From Chloroflexota bacterium (GTDB lineage Bacteria; Chloroflexota; Anaerolineae; Anaerolineales; VGOW01): a DNA stretch of 64,000 nt. The stretch spans positions 124,001 through 188,000 of the forward strand of contig JACPWC010000031.1 of assembly GCA_016197225.1 (NCBI GenBank), read 5' to 3'. Below are positions 55,570 through 59,843 of the stretch, in pieces (position 1 is the first letter of the stretch; each line of letters begins with the position of its first letter). The translations under genes and the position numbers were made by a program. The notes beneath the pieces are model-generated. The model did no database searches, had not been told where the DNA came from, and saw only the letters and a program-made list of their open reading frames with translations.

Positions 55570-55968
55570 ATGCCCAAAAATATAGCCAGGAAGATCGAAA
55601 TAGCGGTCCCGATTGAGCAAGTGTGGGCGGCCCTCACCGACCCGGCGGTCATCGGCGGCTGGATGGGTAGCAAAGGGTTGAAGGTGACGCTGAGGCGAGG
55701 CGGGCGCTACGCTCTCTTTGGCGGCGAGACGACCGGCAAGTTCACCGAGATCAAAAAGCCGGCCCGGCTCGAATATACCTGGCGGCAATCGAGTTGGAAG
55801 AAGGAATGGGCCGACTCGGTAGTGCGCTGGGAGTTGAAAGCAAAAAACGGCGGAACCGTGATCAAATTAACGCATAGCCAGTTCCCCAACAAAGAGGAAC
55901 GCGACGGCCATGACGAAGGCTGGGACGTGTACTTTCTAAAGCCGATGAAGGAGTGGTTGGAGTCGTAG
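55570..55968 (+). CDS. AHSA1/SRPBCC-domain protein
   Basis: 132 aa; GGAAGGAGAACGATC gives a strong RBS. Bet v1-like/SRPBCC fold: RKIEIAVPIEQVWAALTDPA, VIGGWMGSKGLKVTLRRGGR, PARLEYTWRQSSWKKEWADS. Family members bind hydrophobic ligands or (as Aha1) activate Hsp90; bacterial ones are often co-regulated with ECF sigma factors. The convergent gene 56028-56330 and the SnoaL-ECF sigma lie next to it. Function unassigned. Confidence 0.88.
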   Translation: MPKNIARKIEIAVPIEQVWAALTDPAVIGGWMGSKGLKVTLRRGGRYALFGGETTGKFTEIKKPARLEYTWRQSSWKKEWADSVVRWELKAKNGGTVIKLTHSQFPNKEERDGHDEGWDVYFLKPMKEWLES

Positions 55969-56027: not shown

Positions 56028-56330
56028 TTAGAATGCGCTCCAGCCCGATTCGGCCCAGACAGATATGTCTGGCATGCCCTCGAACAACTTTCCGAACTCG
56101 GCGGCGACGTTCGGGTCGTTCATGAACTTCTGCATGCCCTCAATGTTGTCCCAGGTGTCTACTGCCAAAAACTCCTGAGGGTTCTGGGGGTTGAGATAGG
56201 GCTGGTGCCCGACATCGCCGAGCGGCCTGCCGATCACCGACAACTTGGCGACAGCCGCATCGTGCCCAGCCTGCGCCTTTTTAGGATCCGTATCCTTCAA
56301 CTTTCCGCGAACAACGACAATGAACTTCAT
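56028..56330 (-). CDS. small dimeric alpha/beta-barrel (YCII/EthD-like) protein
   Basis: 100 aa; CAGGAGATTGCC as RBS. MKFIVVVRGKLKDTDPKKAQ, EFLAVDTWDNIEGMQKFMND and a Trp/Phe-rich end suggest the ferredoxin-like dimeric alpha/beta barrel of ABM/YCII/EthD proteins (small oxygenases or ligand binders). Its promoter (56361-56392) is of the ECF type shared with the divergent sigma gene, so it is a likely target of that sigma. Enzymatic role unknown. Confidence 0.8.
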   Translation of the reverse strand: MKFIVVVRGKLKDTDPKKAQAGHDAAVAKLSVIGRPLGDVGHQPYLNPQNPQEFLAVDTWDNIEGMQKFMNDPNVAAEFGKLFEGMPDISVWAESGWSAF

Positions 56331-56360
56331 GGCAATCTCCTGAGTGTGTAAGATTTGATT

Positions 56361-56392
56361 GATAAGACGGGTGAGCGATTGAAAACTGTGCG
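56361..56392 (-). promoter_or_regulatory. ECF-type promoter of the 56028-56330 gene
   Basis: -35 CGCACAGTTTT (56392-56382), 12-nt spacer, -10 CGTCTTATC (56369-56361), 31 bp before the start codon. The -35 is part of a 14-bp inverted repeat shared with the divergent promoter. Confidence 0.7.
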
Positions 56393-56413
56393 GTGAAGTT
56401 GAGCGGCGACCAC

Positions 56414-56443
56414 CGCACAGTTTTGGCGGTCGCCATCGTCATA
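56414..56443 (+). promoter_or_regulatory. ECF-type promoter of the SnoaL-ECF sigma gene
   Basis: -35 CGCACAGTTTT (56414-56424), 12-nt spacer, -10 CGTCATA (56437-56443). Identical spacing to the promoters at 56361-56392 and 57830-57861. Suggests autoregulation. Confidence 0.7.
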
Positions 56444-56478
56444 CAAACATTGATCGAAGAGGGGCAATAGCCAACCGA

Positions 56479-57528
56479 ATGCCGAAAGAGACAACCATCG
56501 CTTACACGCTCGACCCGGCGCTGGCCGGCCACCTCGCCGCCGCGCGGGCAGGCGACCACAACGAATTCAGCGTACTGGCCGAGCCTTACCGCCGCGAACT
56601 GCAAGTTCATTGCTATCGCATCCTCGGCTCACTGCACGACGCCGAAGATTTGGTGCAGGAGACGATGTTGCGCGCCTGGCGGCGGCTCGACACATTCGAG
56701 GGCCGGGCCTCGTTACGGGCCTGGCTATACAAAATTGCCACCAACGCCTGCCTCGACGCCCTCGACAAACGGCCTCGACGCGCCCTGCCTCCAGCCACGC
56801 ACCCTCCTGCCGATCCTCGTCGGCCTCTTGCGCCGCCCGTGGCCGAGCCGCTGTGGCTGGAGCCTTTGCCCGACGATCTGCTGGCCGGGGCCGAGGAGAA
56901 TCCCGAAGCCCGTTACACGACACGCGAAAGCATCACCCTGGCGTTCCTGGCGGCGTTGCAAACGCTCCCGCCTCGCCAGCGGGCGGCAGTGATTTTGTGC
57001 GACGTGCTTGACTGGAAAGCGAGTGAAGCCGCCGAGTGTTTGGGCGCGACACCCTCGGCGGTGAATAGCGCCCTGCACCGGGCGCGCGAGACGCTGGCCA
57101 AAAAATATCATCGGCGTGAGACAATGAAGCTTGCTCACGCCGATGAGCGCACCCGCGCCCTGCTCGACCGTTTCATGCGCGCCTGGGAGACCGCCGACGT
57201 GAACACGTTGGTCAGCCTGCTCAAAGACGAGGCCACGCTGGCCATGCCGCCCACACCTTCATGGTATCGCGGGCCTGAGGAAATTCGCGCTTTTCTGCTG
57301 GCGGTCCCGCTGGCCGGCGACGCGCAAGATCGGTGGCGGTTGATCCTCACCCAGGCCAACGGCGGACCAGCGTTTGCGTTTTATCAGCGGGACGACTCAA
57401 CGGCGAACGGTCTCTATCGAAGCGCCGGGGTCATGACGATCACCCTGGACGAGGGCGCGATCTTCGAGATGACGCTCTTCACGAATCCCGAACTTGTGTT
57501 GAAGTTCGGATTGCCGCCTGTGATGTAG
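56479..57528 (+). CDS. ECF sigma factor with C-terminal SnoaL-like domain (SigG-like)
   Basis: 349 aa. Region 2: YRRELQVHCYRILGSLHDAE, DLVQETMLRAWRRLDTF, LRAWLYKIATNACLDAL. Region 4: LPPRQRAAVILCDVLDWKAS and EAAECLGATPSAVNSALHRA. The C-terminal 125 residues (ALLDRFMRAWETADVNTLVS, MPPTPSWYRGPEEIRAFLLA) are a SnoaL/NTF2-like domain, as in SigG/SigJ and ECF41/56-type sigmas, where the domain tunes sigma activity and no separate anti-sigma is needed. None is encoded nearby. Promoter of the same type as two neighbours, so it probably transcribes itself and them. Confidence 0.92.
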   Translation: MPKETTIAYTLDPALAGHLAAARAGDHNEFSVLAEPYRRELQVHCYRILGSLHDAEDLVQETMLRAWRRLDTFEGRASLRAWLYKIATNACLDALDKRPRRALPPATHPPADPRRPLAPPVAEPLWLEPLPDDLLAGAEENPEARYTTRESITLAFLAALQTLPPRQRAAVILCDVLDWKASEAAECLGATPSAVNSALHRARETLAKKYHRRETMKLAHADERTRALLDRFMRAWETADVNTLVSLLKDEATLAMPPTPSWYRGPEEIRAFLLAVPLAGDAQDRWRLILTQANGGPAFAFYQRDDSTANGLYRSAGVMTITLDEGAIFEMTLFTNPELVLKFGLPPVM

Positions 57529-57544
57529 AGACGTTTTAGCTTCT

Positions 57545-57796
57545 CTACTTGTTGGCGCTAATCGCTTTGGCCTCGGTGAAGCCGTCGTAGGCGAAGAAGC
57601 AGTTCATGAGGAAGACCGCGCCAAACATGATGGGATACAAGGCCGGGGCCGCTGTCTGCAAATTAAGCTCCACGTAAGTCAGCGCCAGCGCGCCCAGGGT
57701 GAGGGCGATGCCCAGCGCCCGCCGCCGCCCGTTGTACAGCGTGCCTGCGCCCATCAAAAAGAAATTTAGAATACCGGCGATCCAGGGGTTTTTCAT
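57545..57796 (-). CDS. small three-helix membrane protein, predicted ECF target
   Basis: 83 aa from ATG 57796 (AAGGAGCTTTGAC as RBS). MKNPWIAGILNFFLMGAGTL then YNGRRRALGIALTLGALALT, a TM2-like pattern, and a last helix (YPIMFGAVFLMNCFFAYDGF). Function unknown. Convergent with the sigma gene but with its own promoter (57830-57861) of the sigma's type. Confidence 0.8.
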   Translation of the reverse strand: MKNPWIAGILNFFLMGAGTLYNGRRRALGIALTLGALALTYVELNLQTAAPALYPIMFGAVFLMNCFFAYDGFTEAKAISANK

Positions 57797-57829
57797 GTCA
57801 AAGCTCCTTGAGTGAAATGAGGTTTGACA

Positions 57830-57861
57830 GATAAGACGGCAGTGGGGTTGAAAACTGTGCG
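57830..57861 (-). promoter_or_regulatory. ECF-type promoter of the 57545-57796 gene
   Basis: -35 CGCACAGTTTT (57861-57851), 12-nt spacer, -10 CGTCTTATC (57838-57830); both boxes are identical to the promoter at 56361-56392 while the spacers differ. Confidence 0.7.
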
Positions 57862-57878
57862 CTTGAGGCCAGGCAAAT

Positions 57879-59843
57879 TTATTCTGCCAGCCACACAAAC
57901 TGGTACGGCTTCAGAGTCAAGCCCTGAGTTGGAGAGACGGCTTCCCCGGCAACCAAATCGGTGGAAGTTTTTTCAAGCCCAAGTCGTCGCGCCTGATCAG
58001 CATTCAAGTATTGCTCGTGTTCGCTGAAATTCGCCAGCGCCGTAATTCGGCCCCGACCGCCGGAGCGCGAATAGCCGAACACATGATCGTTGCCCGTGTC
58101 CAGCACCTTCATCCCGCCGCCGGCAAATGCCTCGTGCTTCTGCCGCAACTCGATAAGCCGCCGCAAGCCCATATAGACCTTGCCTTCAACCGTTTGCGGA
58201 TCATTCCGGCGGGCGATGTTTTGCCAGTTGGCGCGCGGGCGGTGAACCCAGCGGCTATCGTCGGCTTTGGCCGGGTCGTCGCGATAGCTGTAATCATTCA
58301 ACTGGCCGACCTCGTCGCCAAGATAAATGAGGGGAATGCCGCCGAGGCTGAGGATGACGCTGTGGAGGAGCAGGATGCGGCAGACGGCCTGATCCAACGG
58401 TTCAGCCGCCTCTGATTGAAGGGCGGCCTCCAGCCCGGCCAGCGAGGCGCACGTGCCAGAGATTCGCATGTCACCGGTTTTGGGATTCTCCTGAAACGGC
58501 AGGCCGCGAGCAAAACTGCCCGGAAAGCGACCGGTGAAAAACGAATTGAGAAACTGGCGGTGGTCGTAGCCTTTGACTCCAAGCTGGGCGGCGTCTTCGT
58601 CGGAGAACGTCCAGCCAATATCGTCGTGGACGCGCACGTAGTTGACCCAGGCGCAGTCGGGGTGAATGGCGAAACGCTCGCGCATGGCTTGAGAGAGCAG
58701 TCGCACTTTGCGCGTGGCCAGCGAGTTCCACAGCAGAGCCATTAGCAACGGGTTGTACGAAAGCTGGCATTCGTCGGGGCGGATGTATTTTGCCACCTCA
58801 TCAGGATGAACGATGGCCTCGGATTTGAAGAGCATGGCCGGGGCGGCAATGCGCGCCAGGGTGTTGAAGGCCTGAATGAGCAAATGGGCTTCGGGCAGAT
58901 TCTCACAACTCGTTCCCAATCGTTTCCATATAAAAGCCACTGCATCCAGCCTCAACACTTCCACGCCAACGTTGGCGATGAACAACATCTCTTCGGCCAT
59001 GGCCGTGAAGAGGGCCGGATTGGCGTAGTTCAAGTCCCACTGGAAGGTGTGGAAGGTTGTCCAGACCCAACCCCCAGCCCCCACCCCCGGCCCCTCCCCC
59101 GCAAGGCGGGGGAGGGGGGAGAAAGCGCCGGGGTGTTCGTCCGGGAAGATTTCGCGCAGGTGGGTTTCGTAGGCGTCGGGTTGTCGGCGGTCGGGGAAGA
59201 TGAGGTAGTAATTTTGATGTTCGGCATCGCCGGCGCGAAGCGCCCATTCGTGTTCGTCAGAGGTGTGGTTGAAGATGAAGTCGAGGGCCAGGCTGATGCC
59301 GTCCTGCCGAAGTTCTGCCGCGAGTTGACGCAGTTGAGTCATGTCGCCCAGAATCGGGTTGACCTCACGATAACTGCTCACCGCATAGCCGCCATCGTTG
59401 TTGCCTTCGGGGCAACGGAAGAGCGGCATGAGGTGAAGATAGGTCAGGCCGAGTTCTTTGAAGTAGGGAATCTTTTGGCGAACGCCGTCGAGATTTCCGG
59501 CGAACAAATCTACGTAGCACACGCCGCCCAGCATCCGGTTGGACTGGAACCAGCGCGGATCGTTTTCGCGAGCGGCATCCAGAGCTTTGAGTTCGGCGGG
59601 GCGAGCCAGCCACATTTTGGCAACAGTCGCTAGAATGGTTTCGAGGTGATAGAAGAAGTCGTAGTGGTGGCCGTAAAGCTGGTAGAGGAAATTGAAGAGC
59701 GGGGCAAAGTTGGCTTCGAGGCGGCGGGTGAAGGCCGCCCAACTATCAGAGTCGGTTTCACCGGAGAATTGTCGAGCGAGGCGCGGGAGCAGGCGGGCCA
59801 GTGAGCGTCGGCTTTCGTGGGCAATCCAGTCAGAGTCAAGCAT
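57879..59843 (-). CDS. GH13 amylosucrase-like enzyme
   Basis: 654 aa. Full amylosucrase layout (helical N-terminus, TIM barrel, C-terminal beta domain): [20 protein letters not shown], nucleophile Asp300 in [14 protein letters not shown], acid/base Glu342 in [10 protein letters not shown], Asp407 in VHDDIGW, matching positions of amylosucrase catalysis. Such enzymes make alpha-1,4-glucan from sucrose or isomerise/hydrolyse sucrose. In the loop before [15 protein letters not shown] the usual residues are replaced by [15 protein letters not shown], encoded by an inserted palindromic repeat; activity may be altered. It lies 6 bp after the damaged ROK gene in the sugar operon. Confidence 0.9.
59091..59117. 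repeat. in-frame palindrome inside the amylosucrase-like gene
   Basis: Perfect 12-bp arms CCCCTCCCCCGC / GCGGGGGAGGGG with 3-nt loop, flanked by a CCCCCAGCCCCCACCCCCGG tract (about 59070-59090). Keeps the reading frame open and encodes PLPRLAGEG. Confidence 0.75.

Follow-up and report, generated by a model that had tools for sequence, protein, structure and literature searches.

The window, that is, the whole stretch of 64,000 nucleotides (64 kb) of Chloroflexota DNA analysed here, contains a gene for an ECF sigma factor of 349 aa (56479–57528, + strand), with a start codon (ATG 56479) chosen from homology and leader length. Pfam, NCBIfam and an AlphaFold (AF2) model with a pLDDT of 89 describe a sigma2 domain, a long linker, a sigma4 domain and a C-terminal SnoaL_2 domain (residues 230–330; 57166–57468, + strand). 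All three Pfam matches (PF04542, PF08281, and PF12680 with E=1.7e-8) are above their cut-offs, which agrees with the preliminary description of this DNA as encoding an ECF sigma factor with a SnoaL tail. The same combination of sigma2, sigma4 and C-terminal SnoaL_2 is a trait of the ECF56 (SigG) group. Because the protein passes TIGR02960 (SigX5; 351 bits, cut-off 265) and PRK08241 (407 bits), and because the structure closest to its model in the PDB is that of S. tsukubaensis SigG1 (7qh5; TM 0.75/0.84, sequence E=6e-62), followed by M. tuberculosis SigJ, family models and predicted structure identify it as a SigG/ECF56-type factor; TIGR02960 is equated with ECF56 here by inference from SigG homology. 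The sigma2.3 specificity loop L3 (RRLDTFEGRASL; 56680–56715, + strand) has the 12-residue form that accompanies xGTC -10 elements.

Divergent from the sigma gene lies a putative target gene (56028–56330, − strand), considered as such from synteny and co-occurrence, whose 100-aa product is predicted to be a dimeric alpha-beta-barrel protein of the ABM/SnoaB fold. Its sequence signal is limited to one weak ABM match in Pfam, and the top Foldseek match of its model is SnoaB (3kg1, E=9e-6), with other ABM monooxygenases also matching. A YCII-like identity, proposed earlier, was abandoned: Pfam returned no YCII (PF03795) match at E<0.1. The predicted fold is that of SnoaB and the ABM cofactor-independent monooxygenases, but identity to them is only ~13%, and catalysis by the window protein is putative. 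An AHSA1/SRPBCC gene (55570–55968, + strand) is convergent with the ABM gene, and at one other locus (L018, genome G050) an SRPBCC gene is itself the divergent target of the sigma factor. On the other side, an ORF convergent with the sigma gene encodes a small membrane protein of 83 aa (57545–57796, − strand). No homologue of this protein was found in 120 relatives, nor at other sigma loci, and it was rejected as a conserved component of the circuit; this arm is private to the present genome.

Copies of the motif in the window and the genome

The motif CGCACAGTTTT-N12-CGTC[T/A]TA had been described at three places, always with a 12-nt spacer. The window indeed holds three exact copies, all of them intergenic, in the short gaps 56331–56478 and 57797–57881. 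Site 1 (56363–56392, − strand; CGCACAGTTTT-N12-CGTCTTA) would be the promoter of the divergent ABM-fold gene, with a leader of ~28 nt and the SD AGGAG. Site 2 (56414–56443, + strand) would be the sigma gene's own promoter, with the -35 element CGCACAG(TTTT), N12, the -10 element CGTCATA and a leader of ~31 nt to ATG 56479. Site 3 (57832–57861, − strand; CGCACAGTTTT-N12-CGTCTTA) lies upstream of the small membrane-protein gene, with a leader of ~31 nt. These leader lengths are estimates, which presuppose that transcription starts a few nt past the -10 element. Counted from the end of CGCACAG, the distance to the -10 CGTC is 16 bp.

Chance would rarely yield such a set: in 100 dinucleotide shuffles of the window, the mean number of matches was 0.09 and the maximum was 1. 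No further copy was detected in the 64 kb with up to 3 mismatches allowed, and the whole assembly (4.8 Mb, 126 contigs) contains no exact copy besides the window's three sites, so that a similar density in coding DNA is not seen. Additional regulon members in this genome were also sought and rejected. None of its one-mismatch copies looks like a promoter, as one (L004) lies within a CDS and two (L005 and L006) do not point towards the start of a gene; with up to 2 mismatches, there were 10 matches versus 7 for the reversed pattern used as a control.

The 14-bp inverted repeat noted between the divergent genes (56382–56395/56411–56424) is exact at 14/14 bp and is made by two back-to-back -35 elements. 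Across loci, facing sites are 22 to ~200 bp apart, and since this distance varies, the repeat is not an operator in itself; it is a by-product of back-to-back promoters.

Pairing of the motif with the sigma gene in Chloroflexota

In a relative of the same genus (G002), identity is 61% for the sigma homologue and 71% for the ABM gene, and the two back-to-back sites persist with one mismatch each. Three other Anaerolineales genomes (G114, RBG_16_57_11 and G050) retain the divergent site in a weaker form, with CGTC at N12. The ABM gene occupies the equivalent divergent position in four other Anaerolineales loci (51–70% identity). Of 121 relatives, exactly four have this gene, and each of the four also has the sigma gene or a remnant of it (P=6e-7), so sigma and ABM genes appear to travel together as a patchy two-gene unit. 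The remnant belongs to G054 (L019 1447–2200), in which the promoter, the sigma N-terminus and the specificity loop are deleted and an in-frame TAA follows sigma4, while the adjoining ABM gene is intact. This genome is not a counter-example, because the loss of the site comes with a decayed sigma locus.

On a larger scale, 400 Chloroflexota genomes were searched for the sigma factor and for exact CGCACAGTTTT-N12-MGTY. Twenty-five of the 28 exact sites, from two classes, have a homologous sigma gene next to them (23 within 0.6 kb, one at 1.7 kb and one by a partial sigma copy), and three are unlinked; the reversed pattern gave 11 matches in total. The sigma factor is carried by 11 of the 14 genomes with the motif, versus 65 of the 400 overall (P=2e-7). 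When the gap was left free between 6 and 18 in 30 sigma-bearing genomes, it was exactly 12 in 25 of 34 matches, the other nine being scattered over the remaining lengths. Similarly, an unsupervised count of gapped words recovered CGCAC-N17-CAGT in 13 of 31 upstream regions from the close sigma clade, where shuffled sequence gave no more than 4; the same count found no common motif above GC-rich noise in more distant ECF56 loci, mostly from Actinobacteria. The motif thus tracks the sigma gene through the phylum, in line with the initial view of a sigma factor with its own promoters and a small local regulon.

Among the 26 distinct sigma loci with sites, every one has a site for the divergent gene and 10 have one for the sigma gene itself. 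The conserved wiring would therefore be the promoter of the divergent gene, with autoregulation apparently frequent but not universal; the small self-controlled regulon of the preliminary description holds in this genome and in its relative from the same genus, but not as a rule. The divergent gene encodes an ABM protein in Anaerolineales. Elsewhere it encodes EthD, SDR, VOC (glyoxalase/bleomycin-resistance type), MFS efflux, luciferase-like monooxygenase (LLM), ODP metallo-hydrolase, SRPBCC, DUF899, RibD-like or alpha/beta hydrolase proteins, the MFS and hydrolase assignments being judged from sequence appearance. What these predicted targets have in common is the modification or export of small molecules.

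The -35 word hardly changes within the clade, whereas the -10 element takes three forms. It is CGTC in Anaerolineales and in a single genome of Ktedonobacteraceae; several Ktedonobacteria have AGTC, and all others have AGTT. Two cultured taxa, Ktedonobacter racemifer and Thermogemmatispora, are among the carriers of the site. Loop L3 has 14 residues, with an inserted GPGS-type segment, in 14/14 sigma factors associated with AGTT, and 12 residues in 12/12 of those associated with xGTC; among the latter, [RQ]A loops pair with CGTC and other loops with AGTC. Loop swaps in E. coli RpoE and structures of M. tuberculosis sigma H have established that L3 reads that -10 nucleotide (PMC8103513, PMC6411747). 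Since the -10 element moves in step with its known reader, this covariation argues, without experiment, that the sites belong to this sigma factor. A tree built without the loop shows just two changes in the -10 class (from CGTC to AGTC, then to AGTT), so the match, although striking, rests on few evolutionary events. The recognition helix of sigma4 has the sequence ALHRAR almost throughout the motif clade, and ALQRAR in the majority of the distant ECF56 proteins.

Control of the sigma factor and alternative explanations

We consider, with a probability of roughly 0.8, that all three sites serve as promoters for the SigG/ECF56-type sigma factor encoded beside them, a switch that would act as follows. 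The sigma factor would drive its own gene and the divergent gene of the ABM/SnoaB fold, which in Anaerolineales is the usual target; the small membrane-protein gene would be a further target, peculiar to this genome. By analogy with ECF41, its own SnoaL_2 domain, docked on the sigma core, probably keeps the factor inactive. A small molecule or a partner would release it, and the released factor would induce a detoxification or modification enzyme together with itself, in a positive loop. Sequence comparison supports the sites, their pairing with the sigma lineage, the strict spacing, the -10/loop covariation, the conserved divergent target and the frequent own promoter; we infer the transcription from the sites, the gating by SnoaL_2, the ligand and the role in detoxification. 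Against this reading, absence of autoregulation is reported for both characterised SigG proteins, from M. tuberculosis and S. tsukubaensis, and the latter, SigG1, has an anti-sigma factor, RsfG, as well.

This last point speaks for an improbable alternative, the least improbable of three, in which the sigma factor reads the same promoters but answers to an anti-sigma factor in the membrane. The co-regulated 83-aa membrane protein may be that factor, in a negative feedback. The membrane protein shares the promoter, and in an Anaerolineales MAG (L020), a site with two mismatches (5492, − strand; CGTCTTA) downstream of the sigma gene, in the position of the window's third promoter, precedes an unrelated membrane protein of 125 aa. 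However, the 83-aa protein is missing from all other sigma loci and from the 120 relatives, and in 16 loci the divergent gene is the only conserved neighbor, with no conserved anti-sigma gene. Neither was an RsfG-type gene seen beside the sigma gene in these 16 loci, where no co-directional neighbor is conserved; RsfG marks a Streptomyces subgroup and not the whole family.

An ECF41 sigma system, with its SnoaL tail, TGTCACA-N16-CGTC promoter and COE target, follows the same logic as the locus described here. Both combine a SnoaL-tailed ECF sigma factor (SigJ, Ecf41Bli and Ecf41Rsp in ECF41) with a 7-bp -35 element, N16 and CGTC, and with an adjoining enzyme gene, which in ECF41 is the sole detectable target (PMC3426412); neither has a conserved anti-sigma gene. 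Membership in ECF41 was nevertheless rejected and is very unlikely. The window sigma falls far under the cut-offs of TIGR02957 (116 of 323 bits) and PRK09636/SigJ (119 of 271 bits), whereas it passes the two SigG-type models, and its structure is nearer to SigG1 than to SigJ. Spacing and -10 element agree with the ECF41 promoter, but the -35 element does not (CGCACAG here, TGTCACA in ECF41). The neighbor is not a COE protein, but an ABM-fold protein at the window, an SDR in some relatives and many others elsewhere, and the ECF41 regulatory motifs YVGPWLPEP, in the linker, and NPDKL are missing from the window sigma sequence. The circuit works like ECF41, and its lineage is SigG/ECF56.

Equally slight are the chances that the repeated word is the operator of a separate dimeric transcription factor, as the exact inverted repeat between the divergent genes could suggest: site 3 stands alone and many loci likewise have just one copy, facing copies are not at a fixed distance, the word keeps a spacing of exactly 12 bp to [CA]GT[CT], no other conserved regulator gene lies alongside, and the -10 element covaries with the L3 loop of the sigma factor.

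Relation to SigG proteins and a possible portable switch

The preferred reading, a SnoaL-tailed sigma factor acting on its own local promoters, can be compared with the characterised members of its group. M. tuberculosis SigG (Rv0182c) and S. tsukubaensis SigG1 share with the window sigma the TIGR02960 family, the SnoaL_2 tail, the long sigma2–sigma4 linker and the fold (7qh5). The genes that M. tuberculosis SigG induces most strongly are two of glyoxalase-like type, with the putative promoter CGATGA-N18-GTC (PMC3776920), whose geometry equals that of the CGCACA-N18-GTC of the present clade, and VOC (glyoxalase-type) targets recur in Chloroflexota. In contrast, the targets of SigG and SigG1 are elsewhere in the genome, whereas the window regulon is local and would include the sigma gene; their -35 words also differ from that of the window, and the motif reported for SigG1 is CCG-N17-CCCTCC. 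What appears new is an ECF41-like, local and autoregulated circuit run by a SigG/ECF56-type sigma factor, when the two characterised SigG proteins are reported not to regulate themselves. The literature found on SnoaL-tailed SigG/ECF56 factors settles neither their signal nor what the tail does in regulation. The circuit is compact and tractable, with promoter, target and sigma gene in ~2 kb, and is repeated in dozens of Chloroflexota loci.

More generally, and only tentatively, since we rate it at somewhat less than an even chance, the SnoaL-tailed sigma lineage of Chloroflexota might be a portable one-component switch, whose promoter is kept across two classes while the divergent detoxification or efflux gene is exchanged. 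Its -10 specificity would have moved stepwise from CGTC to AGTC and AGTT through substitutions in L3 and then a two-residue insertion. If true, such a switch would resemble the divergent TetR/MarR layout, but with a ligand-sensing sigma factor. The pair of switch and promoter recurs in distant relatives with differing detoxification-type genes, so that its control logic can be read from sequence. The CGTC/AGTC/AGTT series, with its matching L3 loops, offers ready-made variants for testing how ECF promoter specificity changes, as well as orthogonal sigma/promoter pairs for synthetic circuits.

Several sigma homologues (L103, L104 and L112, each with TAG, and L021) have a single in-frame stop in frames that are otherwise intact, which may reflect a sequencing error, recent decay or readthrough. 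In Ktedonobacteria, the facing sites of four loci (L022 3533/3730, L023 3543/3740, L105 1049/1245 and L152 1527/1723) are near-identical over up to ~57 bp, spacer included; these inverted promoter duplications, ~200 bp apart, suggest recent duplication or gene conversion. At Ktedonobacteria sites (e.g., L022 3708–3729), the -35 element is immediately preceded by a conserved GAAAAT-N8/9-CAGAC block, possibly an UP-like element, which the window lacks.
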